A DNA stretch of 64,000 nucleotides from Clostridia bacterium (GTDB taxonomy: Bacteria > Bacillota > Clostridia > Christensenellales > SZUA-584). Positions 12,445 to 19,912 of this stretch are shown piece by piece. The stretch is from the NCBI GenBank assembly GCA_003249555.1, contig QKIQ01000046.1, forward strand, positions 24,259 to 88,258. The letters run 5' to 3'. The position numbers were made by a program, and so were the translations under genes. How positions within the stretch are numbered: position 1 is the first letter of the stretch; every line of letters begins with the position of its first letter. The notes below the pieces were generated by a model. It was not told the DNA's origin and made no database searches. It saw only the letters and a list, made by a program, of their open reading frames with translations.

Positions 12445-13269
12445 TTAAATCTCGATAATATCTCCTGTATTCATCTTTTTCACACGGGACAGCGTGCTCA
12501 ATTTTTCGAGTGGCTTCTGACCTGTACAATGACCTGAGTAGACCTTTTTAATTTTATTATTATCAAAGTATTTTGCGATGGCGTAAATTTCGGACTCGGG
12601 TTCTTTTTTGAAGCCGCGTTTGCCGCTGCCACTCAAATGGAACCCTCCCACAACACCTTTAATCGTACCGAACTCCTCATTTGCGCTCATAAGAATGTTA
12701 AGCACGCCGTGATGCGCGCAGCCTGTCAGCACAACCACACCGTTTTTTGTGTTTATGGCCACATAAAGCTCGTGGTCGAGGTTATCGGCAATAAACTGAC
12801 CATTCTTTTTTTCCAGCATTAATGATGTGTAAAGAGGTAAACGGCGGAGTTTTTTGATGCTTGCTGCTGACACGCCATCGGCTAAGTCGATGCGGCCGTC
12901 AAAAAAATGCAAGCGTTCTTCATATTTGTCAAAAAAAGCAGGCTCAAGCCCGGATCTTTCATTTTTACCGATGCGCTTTTCGTAATAATCGCTGTGGACG
13001 GCGCTTTTTAAATAGACTTGTGCATGATTGTTAATGCCAAGAAAAGCTTCAAGACCACCGATATGATCGTTGTGCGCGTGTGATATCACACATATATCCA
13101 CTTTGTTAAGATCGATGCCAAGCAGGGTGGCGTTGTATACGAATGCGTCGGAAGCGCCTGTATCAAAAAGTATGTGCTTACCGCCATGTTCAAAGTATAA
13201 ACTCAAGCCATGTTCTGAAATAAACCCGTTGTTTTTTTTATTATCCTCAACTAATACATATATCTTCAT
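12445..13269 (-). CDS. MBL-fold metallohydrolase
   Basis: SEHGLSLYFEHGGKHILFDTGASD...VISHAHNDHIGG...LTGCAHHGVLNIL...GGFHLSG. Confidence 0.9.
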   Translation of the reverse strand: MKIYVLVEDNKKNNGFISEHGLSLYFEHGGKHILFDTGASDAFVYNATLLGIDLNKVDICVISHAHNDHIGGLEAFLGINNHAQVYLKSAVHSDYYEKRIGKNERSGLEPAFFDKYEERLHFFDGRIDLADGVSAASIKKLRRLPLYTSLMLEKKNGQFIADNLDHELYVAINTKNGVVVLTGCAHHGVLNILMSANEEFGTIKGVVGGFHLSGSGKRGFKKEPESEIYAIAKYFDNNKIKKVYSGHCTGQKPLEKLSTLSRVKKMNTGDIIEI

Positions 13270-13317
13270 AATTCACCTTTGCTTGTGCATATAACGCCAT
13301 TGTTATATGTACACGGT

Positions 13318-13656
13318 TTATGGGTTTTGCACGTTCCTTCTTTCTGCTTCATAGAGTTCTTTGATCGTTTCTATTGAAAGTTCATCTAAAGCTAAGCTGG
13401 AATTAACGTTTTTATGTCTTTTTTGTTCAAAAAGCTTTTTATTTGTTTTAAGTACGTCATAGGAAAACAATTCGAGGATGCTGATATCAAGACCGCGACA
13501 AATGGCAGATAGAGTATCAAACTGAGGGATTTTTTTCCCGTTTTCAATATAGGAGAGCGTTGATTGTGCAATGCCGGCTTTATGCGCAAGTTCGCATTGG
13601 GATATGCGTTGGAGCTCGCGCAGCTTTCGTATCTTCGCGCCAATTTCTCTATTCAT
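13318..13656 (-). CDS. XRE-family HTH regulator
   Basis: MNREIGAKIRKLRELQRISQCELAHKAGIAQSTLSYIENGKKIPQFDTLSAICRGLDISILELF. Confidence 0.9.
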   Translation of the reverse strand: MNREIGAKIRKLRELQRISQCELAHKAGIAQSTLSYIENGKKIPQFDTLSAICRGLDISILELFSYDVLKTNKKLFEQKRHKNVNSSLALDELSIETIKELYEAERRNVQNP

Positions 13657-13918
13657 TGTTATCGCCTTCCTTTCAAGGCTTTTCATTACTTATTCTATCA
13701 CCAAAAAATTCAAAGCACAACCCGTATAAACGACATATGATAAAAGAATTCACTATTGTTGCTCATTTCATTGTTATACATAAGATATTGGGATTATGAC
13801 AGACACATAAGGGATATAAGCAGAGATTATTTAAAGAGAAAATGGCCAAAATCGACATGGATTGCTTTGCAAAGCTTGTCGATTAATAAGAAGTGAGATG
13901 CAGAATTTAAAAAAAGTT

Positions 13919-13969
13919 ATTGACATATGCTCATAATGCGCTACAATTGAGTTATGAGCATATGTCAAT
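13919..13969 (+). promoter_or_regulatory. SigA-like promoter with overlapping 18-bp inverted repeat operator
   Basis: TTGACA(13920)-N16-TACAAT(13942); arms ATTGACATATGCTCATAA (13919-13936) and TTATGAGCATATGTCAAT (13952-13969), perfect. Confidence 0.8.
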
Positions 13970-14085
13970 AATGATCTGGTTAAGCTAATTGTGAAAAATG
14001 ACTGCTTTGAATGGATTATATTTATTAACAGTAAAAGCAGTACTGGTAAACAAGAGGAAAAGGATAAGGAAGGAGGTGAATGAAT

Positions 14086-14298
14086 ATGCCAAGAGGAGAC
14101 GGAACAGGCCCTGTGGGAATGGGGCCGATGACCGGAAGAGCGATGGGTTATTGCGCAGGAGCTGTTGTGCCCGGCTATGCAAACGCCGGGGCTGGCAGCG
14201 GGCGCGGAAGAGCGTTTCGAAGAGCATTCCGGATTTTCGGGCTTGGTAGACGTTTTCGTTTTAATGCCCGAAGAGCAGGTCGTATGAGATGGCAATGA
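14086..14298 (+). CDS. DUF5320-like Gly/Met-rich small protein, copy 1
   Basis: MPRGDGTGPVGMGPMTGRAMGYCAGAVVPGYANAGAGSGRGRAFRRAFRIFGLGRRFR; AAGGAGG upstream. Confidence 0.8.
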   Translation: MPRGDGTGPVGMGPMTGRAMGYCAGAVVPGYANAGAGSGRGRAFRRAFRIFGLGRRFRFNARRAGRMRWQ

Positions 14299-14339
14299 AG
14301 CGGACGCTTTCCGCACAAATGAAAAGGAGGTAACTGAAT

Positions 14340-14663
14340 ATGCCAAGAGGAGACGGAACAGGCCCTATGGGAATGGGGCCGATGACCGGAAGAGCGATGG
14401 GCTATTGCGCAGGATATGCTGCACCTGGTTTTGCTAATGCCGGATTCGGCATGGGGCGTGGCCGTGGTTTTAGACAAATGTACAATATGACCGGTCGGCC
14501 GGGTTGGACGCGTAATGGTGCGTATCCATATGGAGCATATGCGTATCAGGGTGTAGTACCTGAAGTGGATGAAAAGGAAGTCCTGCAAAATCAGGCCGAT
14601 TATCTTGAAAAGCAACTCAATGATGTACGCAAAAGGCTAAAAGACTTTGAAGAAAACGCGTAG
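14340..14663 (+). CDS. DUF5320-like Gly/Met-rich protein with C-terminal coiled coil, copy 2
   Basis: MPRGDGTGPMGMGPMTGRAMGYCAGYAAPGFANAGFGMGRGRGFRQMYN...EVDEKEVLQNQADYLEKQLNDVRKRLKDFEENA. Confidence 0.87.
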   Translation: MPRGDGTGPMGMGPMTGRAMGYCAGYAAPGFANAGFGMGRGRGFRQMYNMTGRPGWTRNGAYPYGAYAYQGVVPEVDEKEVLQNQADYLEKQLNDVRKRLKDFEENA

Positions 14664-14670
14664 CACACAA

Positions 14671-14708
14671 AGGAAAAGAAGGCAGGAATGATCCTGTCTC
14701 CTTTTCTT
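14671..14708 (+). terminator. Terminator-like hairpin after DUF5320 genes
   Basis: GGAAAAGaagGCAGGA-atga-TCCTGtctCCTTTTCTT. Confidence 0.5.
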
Positions 14709-14901
14709 ATTCTATATTATTGTTGAACAAGTATTATAAATGGACTTGGTTATGATAGCAGATGTGAGCGTACAGAATTAAAAAGCAGTCTGACTTTAGT
14801 ATTGCTTGCAGGAGTAGAAAATTCGGGCTTAAATAAATGTGTCTAGTGAGTTATGATAAAGCACATACAATGTAACTATTGAACGATAAGTGAGGTGTCA
14901 A

Positions 14902-15378
14902 ATGGCAAGACCAACGAAGTGGCGGAAGATTGAACATATTCCAACGGTGGAGAATTTTATTCCGATAGATAAGGGAACGACTCAATTTGATGAAAATGTT
15001 TTGAAGCTGGAGGAATTGGAAGCGATACGGCTCAAAGATCTCGAAGGTTTGGAGCAGGGTGAGTGCGCTGAAAAAATGCAGGTATCCCGCCCAACTTTTC
15101 AAAGAATCCTATTCTTGGCGCGTGAGAAGGTTGCGGACAGCTTGATTAACGGTAAGGCGATTCGTATTGAAGGTGGCAGCTTTACGCGCAATATTTGTCC
15201 GGTTCGGTGTCTTGAGTGCGGCAACGAGTGGACAGAAAGCTTTGAAAATATGGAACGAATGGGCAATAAAGAGTATGCCTGTCCAAAATGCGGCTCGAAA
15301 AATGTATTGTGCGGCCGCGGCGGGAAGGGGCAGTTTTGCAGAGGCAATTGTCATCGTCACGGAAGAAACGGACGGTAA
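14902..15378 (+). CDS. DUF134-family HTH protein with Cys-rich zinc-ribbon-like C-terminus
   Basis: ARPTKWRKIEHIPTVENFIPIDKGT...LKLEELEAIRLKDLEGLEQGECAEKMQVSRPTFQRILFLAREKVADSLINGKAIRIEGG + CPVRCLECGNEW...CPKCGSKNVLCGRGGKGQFCRGNC. Confidence 0.88.
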   Translation: MARPTKWRKIEHIPTVENFIPIDKGTTQFDENVLKLEELEAIRLKDLEGLEQGECAEKMQVSRPTFQRILFLAREKVADSLINGKAIRIEGGSFTRNICPVRCLECGNEWTESFENMERMGNKEYACPKCGSKNVLCGRGGKGQFCRGNCHRHGRNGR

Positions 15379-15476
15379 AATTTTATTTTGCTGCGTATAT
15401 GTGCTTTGAGCGGCTTGCATTGATCAAGCGATAAATATAAAATATAAAAAAGCACAAGCATGAAGGGAGCATATAA

Positions 15477-15788
15477 ATGTCTGAGGTTAAAGTCAATCCC
15501 GGAATTTGCGGTCTTGAAACGAATATCACGATTACATCGGATATGGATACGGCAAGCATCGCTATTTCATCACAGTGTCCCAGCGTTCAAAAAATGCAGG
15601 AAGATTTAACGGATATCGATTGTCTTGAAGAATGCTTTTCAAAAATCGGCACATCACAAGTATATGAAGCGGCAGGCAAGCATTGCAAGCATGTCGGTTG
15701 TCCCGTGCCTTCGGCCATTATCAAAGGTTTAGAGGTCGCATGCGGGTATGCCCTGCCTAAGGATGTTGAGATTAAAATAAGCAAGTAA
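15477..15788 (+). CDS. Small Cys-containing protein, DUF6951-like
   Basis: VKVNPGICGLETNITITSDMDTASIAISSQCPSVQKMQEDL...HCKHVGCPVPSAIIKGLEVACGYALPKDVEI. Confidence 0.6.
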   Translation: MSEVKVNPGICGLETNITITSDMDTASIAISSQCPSVQKMQEDLTDIDCLEECFSKIGTSQVYEAAGKHCKHVGCPVPSAIIKGLEVACGYALPKDVEIKISK

Positions 15789-15868
15789 TTGGTAATAGAT
15801 TCGGGCCGGACACTGACAGCGCCATGATTTAGCCGGGATTTTTCAAGTCAGCAGTATTTGAATCAATA

Positions 15869-15928
15869 TTGACGTATGCCCATAAAAGTGATACCATGCT
15901 ATTGGCGGTTATGAACTTATGCTCATAA
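15869..15928 (+). promoter_or_regulatory. SigA-like promoter with two TATGNYCATA operator-like sites
   Basis: TTGACG(15869)-N17-TACCAT(15892); TATGCCCATA 15875-15884 in the spacer and TTATGCTCATAA 15917-15928 downstream, matching the 13.9-kb promoter. Confidence 0.7.
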
Positions 15929-15957
15929 CTGAAGGTATATGAAGGTGTTGATTAAAT

Positions 15958-16779
15958 TTGAGAGTTGCTCTTTTAGCAGATGATATTGTAAACAAAAGAG
16001 GCCTGCTTGCCGAGCATGGGCTTTCTCTTTACATAGAACATAAAGGAATCAACATACTATTTGATACGGGGCAGTCTTCTGTTTTTTGTCATAACGCTGC
16101 TGCCATGGGAATCAATTTGCAAAATACGGATTGTGTCGTACTCAGCCACGGGCATTATGATCATTGCGGCGGACTGGTTTATTTCCCCAAAACAAATAAA
16201 TACCCTGATATTTATGCGCACCGCCAAGCGTTTTTTAAGCGTTATAAAAAGAGTTCTGATGAATATATTGATATCGGAATTCCATGGCGTCTTGCAGATC
16301 ATCGAGGTATTCAAAACAGTCTGATTTACAACCCAGGCATGCTGAATCCATATCCCGGAGTTCACCTTTTGTCCGAAATACCCTGCTCAACGGATTTTGA
16401 AGACTTTCCAAAAGGGTTTTTTATTAAACAATCTGAACAAATGACTGTAGATATGTTTTATGACGAGCAAATACTCGTGATTGAAACAGACGCAGGCCTT
16501 GTTGTTTTTCTCGGTTGCAGCCATCCCGGCGTTATTAATTGCCTCAAGTATGTAAAAAAGCGTTTTCCGGAACAAAACATTTATGCGCTTTTTGCCGGAA
16601 TGCATATGGAAAAAGCAAGCCCGATACGGATAGAAATGACCATATCACATATGTTAAAGTATCACATTCAAAATATTATACCACTGCATTGTTCGGGTAT
16701 TATGACTATCTGTGAGATGAAACGTTTTTTAAAAGAGCGCTGTCACGTACACGTTGCGGGAGACGTCATTAAGATTTAG
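15958..16779 (+). CDS. MBL-fold metallohydrolase (paralogue of 12445..13269)
   Basis: TTG start after GAAGGTG; LAEHGLSLYIEHKGINILFDTGQSS...VLSHGHYDHCGG...FLGCSHPGVINCL...AGMHM. Confidence 0.88.
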   Translation: MRVALLADDIVNKRGLLAEHGLSLYIEHKGINILFDTGQSSVFCHNAAAMGINLQNTDCVVLSHGHYDHCGGLVYFPKTNKYPDIYAHRQAFFKRYKKSSDEYIDIGIPWRLADHRGIQNSLIYNPGMLNPYPGVHLLSEIPCSTDFEDFPKGFFIKQSEQMTVDMFYDEQILVIETDAGLVVFLGCSHPGVINCLKYVKKRFPEQNIYALFAGMHMEKASPIRIEMTISHMLKYHIQNIIPLHCSGIMTICEMKRFLKERCHVHVAGDVIKI

Positions 16780-16827
16780 CTGAAAATTAAAAAACTGTTA
16801 ATGATACGCTGTATAAAGGATGATTAT

Positions 16828-17229
16828 ATGGGATGTTTTGATTTTTCTGATGCTGTGCTTGATCATTTTATGTGTCCAAGGAATATAGGCGAAATGGATG
16901 ATGCGGATAGTGTCGGAACTGTCGGTGAGCCTGACTGCGGAGATGCGTTGACGATATACATTAAGGTTGAGAATCATGTCATCACGGATATCAGCTTTTT
17001 GGTTTATGGCTGCGCAGCGGCTATCGCGACAAGCAGTATGACGACGGAGCTTGCAAAGGGCAAGACGCTGGAAGAAGCTTATCGGATGACGGAAGAGGAT
17101 ATTGTAAGCGCGTTGGGCGGTCTGCCTAATGACAAGCTGCATTGTTCTGTGCTTGGACCGGGAGCGCTTAAGAAAGCGATTGATAATTATCGGTCAAAGA
17201 CTGCTGATGAAAGGAGCGCGCCATGCTGA
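16828..17229 (+). CDS. NifU-like iron-sulfur cluster assembly scaffold
   Basis: DHFMCPRNIGEMDDADSVGTVGEPDCGDALTIYIKVENHVITDISFLVYGCAAAIATSSMTTELAKGKTLEEA...LHCSVLG; three conserved Cys. Confidence 0.92.
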   Translation: MGCFDFSDAVLDHFMCPRNIGEMDDADSVGTVGEPDCGDALTIYIKVENHVITDISFLVYGCAAAIATSSMTTELAKGKTLEEAYRMTEEDIVSALGGLPNDKLHCSVLGPGALKKAIDNYRSKTADERSAPC

Positions 17230-17543
17230 CAATAAGAACAATTAACAGCCCTTCAAAAGGAACGGTCAATATTTTATCACGTAAAATTCATGAAGATTGC
17301 ATAAAAAATAAACTTGATAACGGTATATACAATGCTCTTGGTTTGATACAAGGCCCTTTGGCAGAGATTATCGTCGCAGGTGATGTGGCTGAAAAGGCAT
17401 CGAACGTGGATATGACCGAAATACAGGGTGTTTGTCCCCAACACATCACAATGATCGGTGTATTTGGAGATACGGCAGCTGTATCCGAAGCACTAAAAGC
17501 AGTTGCTAAACTGGAAGATCATTCGCCGGCAGCGGTGAAATGA
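17223..17543 (+). CDS. Stand-alone BMC-domain-like protein (EutS/PduU-type permuted)
   Basis: RTINSPSKGTVNILSRKI...NALGLIQGPLAEIIVAGDVAEKASNVDMTEIQGVCPQHITMIGVFGDTAAVSEALKAV resembles EutS ([26 protein letters not shown]...GSVGAVEEAL). Confidence 0.65.
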   Translation: MLTIRTINSPSKGTVNILSRKIHEDCIKNKLDNGIYNALGLIQGPLAEIIVAGDVAEKASNVDMTEIQGVCPQHITMIGVFGDTAAVSEALKAVAKLEDHSPAAVK

Positions 17544-17571
17544 AATAAAAATTTTGATTGGAGAGGTAAAA

Positions 17572-18387
17572 ATGTCCGAAAAAAACACGACATGTGACGG
17601 CAAAGAATGCGGAAAAGATAAAGAGAGCTTTCTTGAAAAAACAAACGAGCTGAATTCAATTAAAAGAGTTGTCAGTATCGTCAGTGGTAAAGGCGGGGTG
17701 GGTAAATCGCTCATCACATCGATGACGGCTGTCGTGCTGCGCAGAAAGGGCTATCAGGTTGGTGTGATGGATGCCGATATCACAGGGCCTTCCATACCGA
17801 AAATGTTTGGTGCGGAAAGCTATAAACCGGATAGTTCGGAAATGGGTCTTTTTCCTGTCGCCACGCATAACGATATCAAGCTTATGTCCATCAACCTGCT
17901 TCTGGATAAGGCCGATCAGCCTGTCATATGGCGCGGGCCTTTGATTGCCGGTACAGTGAAGCAATTTTGGACGGATGTTATTTGGGGCGATCTTGATTAC
18001 CTGCTGATCGACATGCCGCCGGGAACAGGCGATGTGCCGCTTACGGTATTCCAGTCGATACCATTGGATGGCATCATTATTGTGACATCTCCTCAGGATC
18101 TGGTCTCGCTGATCGTCAGAAAGGCGTACAATATGGCGAAATCAATGAATATACCCATATTGGGTGTTGTGGAAAATATGAGCTATGCGATTTGCCCAAA
18201 ATGTGGGGATAAGATAAACGTTTTTGGAGAAAGCAAAGCGCAGAAAGTGGCTGATGAACTGGGTATTCCTATGCTGGGAAGGGTACCTATTGATACGGAA
18301 CTGGCTACCCTTTGTGATAAGGGCGAGATTGAGAAGTTAAGCAAAAATTATTTGTCCGGATGTGAAGAGGCGTTGGAAAACTTATAA
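17572..18387 (+). CDS. Mrp/NBP35 family P-loop ATPase
   Basis: VSIVSGKGGVGKSLITSMTAVVLRRKGYQVGVMDADITGPSIPKMFG...DYLLIDMPPGTGDVPLTVFQS...CPKCG. Confidence 0.95.
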   Translation: MSEKNTTCDGKECGKDKESFLEKTNELNSIKRVVSIVSGKGGVGKSLITSMTAVVLRRKGYQVGVMDADITGPSIPKMFGAESYKPDSSEMGLFPVATHNDIKLMSINLLLDKADQPVIWRGPLIAGTVKQFWTDVIWGDLDYLLIDMPPGTGDVPLTVFQSIPLDGIIIVTSPQDLVSLIVRKAYNMAKSMNIPILGVVENMSYAICPKCGDKINVFGESKAQKVADELGIPMLGRVPIDTELATLCDKGEIEKLSKNYLSGCEEALENL

Positions 18388-18459
18388 AGTGTCTATTAAG
18401 GGAGAACTGATACATTCGGTACTTCTATATGATTTCATTACGTAAAAAGGAGAAAATCA

Positions 18460-18951
18460 ATGAATAAAAAAGAAGCGAATTTCAAATCATGCCTACAGCC
18501 GGCACCAAAAGTTCTTGTTTCATGCAGAGGAAAAAACGGAGAGAATAACGCGCTGGCCGTTGCGTATTGCGGCAACTGCAGCTATGATCCGCCAATGGTC
18601 ATGGTCGGCATTGTGCCTTCGCGTTACTCATATAAAATGATTAAGGAATCCGGCTGCTTTGTGGTAAATTTGGCGAGCAAAGAGAACAAAGAAATGTTCG
18701 ATTATCTTGGTTCGCACAGCCGCAGAGATGGGGATAAACTCAAAGAGATTGGTGCCCGGCTGGGTGAGGCGGTCAAGGTAAACGCGCCGATACTCGAGGA
18801 TTGTCCGGTCAACATTGAGTGCAGCATTGTTGACTCTATTGTCACCGGCTCGCATGAGATGTTTGTGGGTAAGGTGGAATATGTGCATGCTGCATCGGAG
18901 TTGGTAAAAGAAAACAAGGACATAGATTTTTGCTCGATGGAGCTTCTATAG
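18460..18951 (+). CDS. Flavin reductase family protein
   Basis: ALAVAYCGNCSYDPPMVMVGIVPSRYSYKMIKESGCFVVNLASKENKEMFDYLG. Confidence 0.88.
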   Translation: MNKKEANFKSCLQPAPKVLVSCRGKNGENNALAVAYCGNCSYDPPMVMVGIVPSRYSYKMIKESGCFVVNLASKENKEMFDYLGSHSRRDGDKLKEIGARLGEAVKVNAPILEDCPVNIECSIVDSIVTGSHEMFVGKVEYVHAASELVKENKDIDFCSMELL

Positions 18952-19138: not shown

Positions 19139-19912
19139 ATGAAAAGAGCGTTTTATTTTGTGTTTGTGCTGCTAATGCTGGGACTGACGGCATGCGGTGC
19201 GCCCGCCGCGGAGACGACGCCGTCAGCGCCCGTTGCGACCCAAGCGCCTACGGCTGAACCCACAGAGGAACCCGCGCCTGAGCTCGCTGTTGTTGAGTTT
19301 ACAGACCCTGTACTTGAGGAGCAGATACGCAAGGCAATGAACAAGCCTGAGAGCGATATCACGCTTGAGGAGGCAGAGCAGATCACCGAATTGGACCTCA
19401 ATATGGAGAATGCAGGGTCTGTTGCTAGAATTGCTGATGTCAGCGATCTCGTCCAATTTCCCAATTTGACTTATCTGAATCTGGGATGGGCGCTCAATAA
19501 TGGTGATAAGGCTGTGGATATAAGCCCGCTTGCCGATTTAAAAAAACTTGGAGTTCTGCATTTAAACTGCAACAATATTGACGATATCAGCGCTTTGGCA
19601 GGTTTGACAGATATGATGGATCTCAAAATATGGGGCAATAGCATAAAGGATATCAGCGCGCTGACCGGAATGACCATGATGGAGGATTTGTGGATTCAAG
19701 GAAATCAAATAACAGATATTAGCGCACTATCCGGTATGACAATTAACCTGTACCGTCTTTATTTGGATGATAATCAAATAACGGACGTGACGCCGCTCGC
19801 AGGATTGACAAAGCTGACATCCTTAAAACTTGGTGGGAACCCTGTCGAGGACTATTCGCCGCTTGCGGATATCTATCAGAATCTTGAGGAGAAGGATTTC
19901 GAATTAAACTAA
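19139..19912 (+). CDS. Leucine-rich-repeat lipoprotein
   Basis: Signal peptide with lipobox LTAC; internalin-like repeats LTYLNLGWALNNGDKAVDISPLADLKKLGVLHLNCNNIDDISALAGL... Confidence 0.88.
   Translation: MKRAFYFVFVLLMLGLTACGAPAAETTPSAPVATQAPTAEPTEEPAPELAVVEFTDPVLEEQIRKAMNKPESDITLEEAEQITELDLNMENAGSVARIADVSDLVQFPNLTYLNLGWALNNGDKAVDISPLADLKKLGVLHLNCNNIDDISALAGLTDMMDLKIWGNSIKDISALTGMTMMEDLWIQGNQITDISALSGMTINLYRLYLDDNQITDVTPLAGLTKLTSLKLGGNPVEDYSPLADIYQNLEEKDFELN

Follow-up and report, generated by a model that had tools for sequence, protein, structure and literature searches.

Within the stretch of clostridial DNA analyzed here (the window, 64 kb in length), nine consecutive genes on the plus strand, at positions 14080–18951, encode two DUF5320 proteins, a DUF134 protein, a DUF6951 protein, an MBL-fold hydrolase, a NifU-type scaffold, a BMC-domain protein, an Mrp-type ATPase and a flavin reductase. 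A preliminary description had listed these genes, and all were found in the order given there, with the family of each supported by Pfam. The genes are probably arranged in three transcription units rather than one. The first comprises an operator and the two DUF5320 genes. DUF5320 protein a (14080–14298) is a Gly/Arg-rich protein of 72 aa with a pI of 12 and one Cys, assigned by PF17253 (E = 6e-16) and by composition, and the gene of protein b (14340–14663; 107 aa; PF17253, 1e-30) is its tandem duplicate, matching it at 82% over 151 nt of DNA (direct repeat D1). This unit is closed by a terminator-like stem at 14680–14699 on the plus strand, recognized by consensus match only. The second unit contains a long-form DUF134 gene (14902–15378; PF02001, 7e-22), whose product combines an HTH, a C-terminal zinc ribbon with a weak Pfam match and a Cys-rich tail, and the DUF6951 gene (15477–15788; 103 aa, 7 Cys; PF22263, 5e-37). 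A DUF6951 gene also belongs to the related island L061/L066; across the order's other genomes, the family is mostly solitary and uninformative.

The third unit consists of a further operator and five genes. The MBL-fold hydrolase (15958–16779; PF00753, 3e-13) is followed by the NifU/IscU-type scaffold (16828–17229; NifU_N, PF01592, 2e-41), which scores below the cut-off of TIGR03419 and carries Cys 37, 62 and 106 at the positions expected of cluster ligands. The BMC gene (17223–17543; BMC, 2e-8) precedes that of the Mrp/NBP35 Fe-S carrier ATPase (17572–18387; NUBPL/Mrp, PF10609, 2e-94). The latter protein has a Walker A motif, GKGGVGKS, at 39 and a CxxC at 208–211, lacks a NifX domain, and reaches 345 bits over the ATPase part of the MrpORP model NF041136, below the cut-off of 450. 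The flavin reductase (18460–18951; PF01613, 4e-31) completes the unit; it occurs in the same neighborhood in loci L068, L069, L076 and L077 and lies behind the operator in L062. The spacing comprises 21 nt between MBL and NifU, an overlap of 7 nt between NifU and BMC, 10 nt between BMC and Mrp (28 nt if a later Mrp start is used) and 72 nt between Mrp and the flavin reductase, which supports the linkage of the genes from MBL to the flavin reductase.

The shared operators proposed in the preliminary description are real. At P1 (13917–13971), TTGACATATGCTCATAA and TTATGAGCATATGTCAA are separated by 15 nt and form a perfect 20-bp inverted repeat (arms 13917–13936 and 13952–13971) around TTGACA-16-TACAAT, a near-consensus sigma-70 promoter with an 11/12 match. 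Two further copies, the half-sites TTGACGTATGCCCATAA and TGAACTTATGCTCATAA, make up P2 (15869–15928) upstream of the MBL gene. Across the 64 kb, matches of at least 14/17 to the operator TTGACATATGCYCATAA, which overlaps the -35 box, number only four, namely the half-sites of P1 and P2. The P1 layout is repeated in other genomes and before an ORP operon on contig C78 of the same genome, and the MBL gene of L069 and L080 likewise has a P2-type arrangement in front of it. The operator is thus common to several genes, contigs and genomes. In G240 and G440, the motif sits among unrelated genes.

The ORP operon on C78 lies downstream of the sole other paired operator site of this genome. Behind it stand a NifX-type ORP gene, two ferredoxin-ParA ATPase genes and a second NifX gene; the window itself contains neither the NifX-type ORP gene nor the two ferredoxin-ParA genes. 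In L068, L069, L076, L077 and L084, the island genes are contiguous with ORP NifX/ParA/ParA. Synteny was assessed among 80 relatives of the MBL gene. Near the top 20, ORP NifX was found at 13/20, Mrp at 11/20 and DUF134 at 12/20, whereas the 29 MBL-paralogue loci used as a control yielded one ORP NifX and no Mrp or DUF134. The neighborhood, whose conservation the preliminary description had suggested checking, is conserved as far as distant clostridia and, in part, Planctomycetes. At the level of sequence, gene identities, conserved linkage and the shared operator identify the island as one half of a divided ORP/Mrp metal-cluster gene set, with its second half on C78. Since this MAG shows 5.6% contamination, a foreign origin of the C78 operon is conceivable in principle; in composition, however, it is compatible. 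The cluster carried by the founding member of this gene set is a Mo-Cu sulfide (PMC6345978). The earlier reading of the island as a metal-cluster module was therefore right in kind, since its genes belong to the ORP/Mrp set, but missed the ORP half on C78; its further elements, storage and an unusual cluster, are conjectural.

These data also bear on two simpler readings. Many anaerobes have homologues of NifU, Mrp and MBL, so a chance cluster of unrelated adjacent genes could be imagined. Yet the counts at the 29 paralogue loci argue strongly against it, and chance co-occurrence with no shared regulation, which had been named at the outset as the outcome that would overturn the module, is excluded by the conserved neighborhood and by an operator shared across genes, contigs and genomes; we regard such a cluster as extremely improbable. 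That the island is simply a NIF/ISC-type operon for Fe-S assembly, next to genes unrelated to it, is quite unlikely. The NifU_N scaffold and the Mrp carrier are general Fe-S proteins, but synteny and operator tie the island to ORP, and a complete NIF/ISC machine was rejected for the island because its nine genes include no cysteine desulfurase.

The BMC-like protein was assigned to the correct family in the preliminary description; profile and structural comparisons specify it as GrpU, a circularly permuted BMC-H protein known for an Fe-S pore. Profile matches to PDB entries were led by the GrpU structures 4olo (7e-23) and 4olp (4e-19). An AF2 model built from 4 sequences had a pLDDT of 68, and one built from 19 sequences reached 89; with the latter, Foldseek returned 4olp/4olo first, followed by other permuted BMC-H proteins. 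EutS/PduU, considered as an identity for this protein, was replaced by GrpU, with EutS far down the match list. The pore motif of form G-x-C-P-Q-H is intact (GVCPQH, residues 69–74) and fits the general GrpU pattern G-x-C-P-Q-N/H, and GxCPQ is invariant in 19/19 homologues. Together with the published absorbance of GrpU at ~420 nm (PMC6325248), the motif suggests that an Fe-S cluster may occupy the pore of the hexamer. The protein shares its fold, its motif and a length of ~100 residues with GrpU of glycyl-radical microcompartments (GRM; 4OLO, 4OLP; PMC6325248).

Published descriptions confine GrpU almost entirely to the loci of glycyl-radical microcompartments. Unlike GRM grpU, the gene in the window lies in an ORP/NifU/Mrp operon, with neither shell genes nor a glycyl radical enzyme gene next to it, and the island was accordingly rejected as a GRM locus. 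No other BMC gene is nearby, and the four remaining BMC-domain matches of the genome are all on contig C7. In all, GrpU genes occur in ORP clusters without adjacent shell genes in the window and about nine other loci; in L212/L217 the GrpU gene overlaps NifX and ParA genes, and one lone GrpU gene stands directly behind the operator. ORP-type GrpUs lie mostly apart from microcompartment GrpUs in the tree (2 changes versus 6.2 when shuffled, with one PDU-locus exception), and operator-like sites accompany 10/11 ORP-type GrpU loci versus 0/8 of the others. At the sequence level, tree and sites delineate a group of ORP-type GrpUs accompanied by the operator, with members in several clostridial groups. 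We give roughly even chances to the further proposal that GrpU-type BMC hexamers serve as an Fe-S relay or reservoir of the ORP system outside compartments, in several clostridial families and under a DUF134-read operator.

A less probable alternative, though one of some weight, is that the island GrpU is a satellite shell gene whose product is exported to the microcompartment encoded on C7, with NifU and Mrp loading its cluster. A shell role in trans is conceivable because each of the 13 GrpU-bearing genomes examined contains further BMC genes at another location. Moreover, the BMC matches at C7 (locus L065) contain no GrpU-like match, and the closest relative of the window's GrpU belongs to a PDU microcompartment operon. 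Against such export, ORP-type GrpUs group apart and carry the ORP operator, and C7 encodes a methylthioribose-type compartment (mtnK/mtnA); no glycyl radical enzyme was seen in the part of that locus that was read. A further point against export comes from Acetobacterium woodii, where expression of the pdu genes was up to 250 times that of the remaining BMC clusters, the ORP-side GrpU gene being among the latter (PMC7593272). That gene, Awo_c10540, had been noted before as a single oddity and ascribed to B12 synthesis (PMC7593272), whereas here the pattern extends to several families with a shared operator. The B12 assignment was set aside, as the corresponding genes of L212/L214/L217 match ORP ferredoxin-ParA and NifX.

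The likely reader of the operator is the long-form DUF134 protein. Across 49 genomes compared, the motif occurs in 19/21 with long-form DUF134 versus 3/28 without it (p = 2e-8), p-values here being inflated because the genomes are related. Two genomes have long-form DUF134 without the motif, and G573 has the motif without DUF134. In two other genomes, the operator lies 58–89 bp upstream of the DUF134 gene itself. As the operator tracks long-form DUF134 across genomes, this protein is likely the regulator that binds it. A metal repressor encoded in the ORP locus and resembling DtxR is an unlikely substitute. A DtxR-like gene is present in the ORP locus of this genome and stands directly behind the operator in L067/L148, and G573 combines the motif with a DtxR-like gene. 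Nevertheless, G572, G581, G588 and G592 have the motif and long-form DUF134 with no DtxR-family match, and association of close DtxR relatives with the motif gave p = 0.16, which disfavors a DtxR-like protein as the general reader.

Taken as a whole, a split ORP/Mrp set with GrpU as a non-shell Fe-S device and a DUF134-controlled operator is the best explanation, and we consider it fairly probable. We infer the cluster chemistry, the metal binding, the binding and repression by DUF134 and the shell-free action of GrpU. NifU would build Fe-S clusters, and the GrpU hexamer, with a cluster in its central pore, would serve not as a compartment wall but as a soluble Fe-S relay or reservoir. Mrp, with ATP, would hand clusters to the ORP ferredoxin-ATPases; published in vitro work shows MrpORP passing Fe-S clusters to the ferredoxin proteins of the ORP system (PMC6345978). 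A possible role of the DUF5320 proteins is to retain anionic metal-sulfide species. Long-form DUF134, bound to the operator half-sites over the -35 box, would repress these promoters until its zinc ribbon or Cys tail senses metal, sulfide or redox state.

Compared with the ORP complex and MrpORP of Desulfovibrio vulgaris (PMC6345978), the system shares an Mrp/NBP35 carrier with Walker A and CxxC motifs and, as in the orp operons, an Orp3/Orp4-like ferredoxin-ParA pair with a NifX-type ORP, here under one operator type. It differs in its two separate loci, in an Mrp that lacks MrpORP's fused NifX domain, and in the additional NifU, MBL, DUF5320, DUF6951, flavin reductase and GrpU genes. The predicted promoters are of sigma-70 type with the TATGNNCATA operator, whereas D. 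vulgaris uses sigma-54 with DVU2106. DUF5320 protein a resembles in character the tail of the thioferrate storage protein IssA (PMC5524996), being cationic and Gly/Arg-rich with one Cys. This is an analogy, as the DUF5320 proteins share Gly/Arg-rich sequence alone, lack the NifX domain (IPR003731) and have no established homology to IssA.

The links of operon, phylogeny and operator between GrpU and ORP open both to testing: the stimulus of the ORP regulon, DUF134 as its regulator, and a shell-fold hexamer as a shell-free Fe-S device. For the A. woodii GrpU homologue, the ORP reading is offered as better than B12 synthesis. A shared pathway is predicted for the DUF134, DUF5320, DUF6951 and CGGC families. 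If true, these proposals would give the microcompartment shell fold a non-shell job and DUF134 its first regulatory function.

Pfam bore out the nine gene families, order and common strand named in the preliminary description: on the + strand lie DUF5320 (14080-14298), a second DUF5320 (14340-14663), DUF134 (14902-15378; zinc ribbon at the C terminus), DUF6951 (15477-15788), MBL (15958-16779), NifU_N (16828-17229), BMC (17223-17543, a 7-nt overlap with the NifU gene), Mrp/NUBPL (17572-18387) and flavin reductase (18460-18951). Upstream of the first promoter (P1, below), a further MBL gene of the same kind and an XRE-type regulator are encoded in divergent orientation (12445-13686, -). The gene 3' of the island (19139-19912, +) encodes a lipoprotein-like protein with leucine-rich-repeat-like sequence, with no link to the island seen. 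The BMC protein is GrpU, a shell-type protein with an Fe-S pore motif. The GrpU structures 4olo (7e-23) and 4olp (4e-19) were the top PDB matches of a four-homologue profile, and Foldseek with an AlphaFold2 model (19 homologues; pLDDT 89.4) placed GrpU chains at ranks 1-2 (target-normalised TM 0.81-0.82), ahead of other permuted BMC-H proteins. The G-x-C-P-Q pore motif is invariant in 19/19 homologues.

The neighbourhood is conserved. Scanning the MBL protein against 84,980 species genomes gave 80 loci, and the 20 closest were compared with 29 MBL paralogue loci from the scan, mostly from Lachnospiraceae and some on short contigs, serving as an internal control: orange-protein (ORP) NifX occurred in 13 versus 1, DUF134 in 12 versus 0, DUF5320 in 12 versus 1, Mrp in 11 versus 0, ORP ParA in 11 versus 1 and NifU in 9 versus 2. 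L068 and L069 carry island-type and ORP genes in a single run (MBL, SCIFF-type radical SAM maturase, NifU, flavin reductase, BMC, CGGC, Mrp, C_GCAxxG/NifX, ParA, ParA, thioesterase); L076 and L077 have a similar run without the BMC gene, and L084 the same content in changed order. The maturase-type gene between MBL and NifU (TIGR03974, 626 bits; L069:10843-12210), found likewise in L061, L068 and L077, is absent from that position in the window.

The shared operators proposed earlier were also recovered. The promoter before the DUF5320 pair (P1, 13917-13971) is bracketed by a perfect 20-bp inverted repeat, and two more half-sites lie upstream of the MBL gene (P2, 15869-15928). The clostridial half-site is TTGACATATGCYCATAA, whose left end also serves as the -35 box; at >=14/17 it has four matches in the 64-kb window, all of them P1/P2 half-sites. 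The full palindrome TTATGNNCATATGNNCATAA is the form in L076 and in Planctomycete MAGs (L123:3681-3698; L140:3786-3803), and since in these MAGs it stands 5' of DUF5320 or NifX genes, the operator is conserved outside Clostridia. Core sites (10 observed, 0.5 expected under a first-order Markov null) reach 0.29/kb upstream of these genes versus 0.04/kb in the remaining non-coding-hit DNA at those loci (7x). Genes directly 3' of motif copies encode DUF5320, NifX, MBL, ferredoxin-type, Mrp, CGGC, thioesterase-like and GrpU proteins. Candidate further regulon members are the genes behind the motif in L062 (2129-2578, site 2598), L173 and L149, which we take to be C_GCAxxG_C_C-like, DUF1847-like and pyridine-nucleotide-disulfide-reductase-like.

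The rest of the genome (2.97 Mb, 130 contigs, 92.7% complete, 5.6% contaminated) yielded only one other paired operator, at C78:3350-3399. Directly behind it lie NifX-ParA(ferredoxin)-ParA(ferredoxin)-NifX, then genes for a DtxR-like regulator, a peptide-deformylase-like protein and a radical SAM protein. This operon matches the orange-protein complex gene set, its NifX resembling the NifX-type Orp8 and its ferredoxin ATPases Orp3/Orp4 (PMC6345978). The island system is thus ORP, divided over two loci.

DUF134 is the likely reader of the operator. With <=1 mismatch allowed, the motif occurs in 19/21 genomes with long-form DUF134 versus 3/28 without (49 genomes; Fisher p=2e-8, inflated by kinship; long form split from other DUF134 at E ~1e-30, a cutoff chosen after scores were seen), and a reversed-pattern control matched in 2/49. 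The motif directly precedes a DUF134 gene twice, which fits autoregulation, and coverage of the -35 box by the operator suggests repression. The alternative that a DtxR-like protein reads the operator is at odds with its absence from four motif-bearing genomes with long DUF134. In addition to the long-form DUF134, the genome has a short DUF134 gene (L034, contig C62) divergent from another Mrp gene and a NifX gene and hence a second Mrp/DUF134/NifX unit.

Searching 391 class-level genomes for GrpU gave 18 further strong matches, whose neighbourhoods were read. Seven lie in ORP clusters or adjoin an MBL gene (L206, L207, L209, L212, L214, L217, L221), eight in microcompartment loci (L210, L213, L215, L216, L218, L219, L220, L223; CutC in two), and three are isolated (L208, L211, L222). 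ORP-type GrpU, the window, L068 and L069 included, spans about five families and several gene orders, among them GrpU-Mrp (window, L206) and NifX-GrpU-ParA with 4-nt overlaps (L212, L217). An operator-like site (>=14/17) marks 10/11 ORP-type versus 0/8 microcompartment loci tested (p=1e-4), a partly circular count, L208 having been included on account of its operator; at 15/17 the figures are 8/11 and 0/8 (p=0.003), and the best site in L209 and L214 reaches only 14/17. In L150/L208, a lone GrpU gene, the operator begins 81 bp 5' of the start codon. Mapping the ORP and microcompartment labels onto the GrpU tree takes 2 changes, versus 6.2 for shuffled labels (0/500 shuffles as low), and G316 carries one GrpU of each type. 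Exceptions are L221, on a long, poorly placed branch, and L224, a PDU-locus GrpU from the same order as the window and the nearest relative of the window's GrpU. The L224 gene, on contig C73 of G022, stands last in a B12-dependent propanediol operon with PduCD/PduG, a non-glycyl-radical setting at odds with the usual description of GrpU. The window's own genome has a microcompartment locus (L065, contig C7) with S-methyl-5-thioribose kinase and isomerase, PduL- and PduS-like and shell genes.

The main doubt is that ORP-type GrpU may be a satellite shell protein, a possible role because 13/13 GrpU-bearing genomes checked have other BMC genes. Around the gene identities, linkage, operator and pore motif established here, we propose a transfer route along which the proteins of the set would bind and pass on clusters, with DUF134 acting on the operator; in the weakest step, DUF5320 might hold metal sulfide, by analogy with the cationic, Gly-rich tail of IssA (PMC5524996). 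The literature searched, mostly without subscription papers, contained no description of the ORP-GrpU link, the operator or DUF134 function. We read the neighbours of the Acetobacterium woodii homologue Awo_c10540, tentatively ascribed to B12 synthesis in a 2020 study (PMC7593272), as ORP NifX and ParA. ORP clusters are a second genomic home of GrpU.
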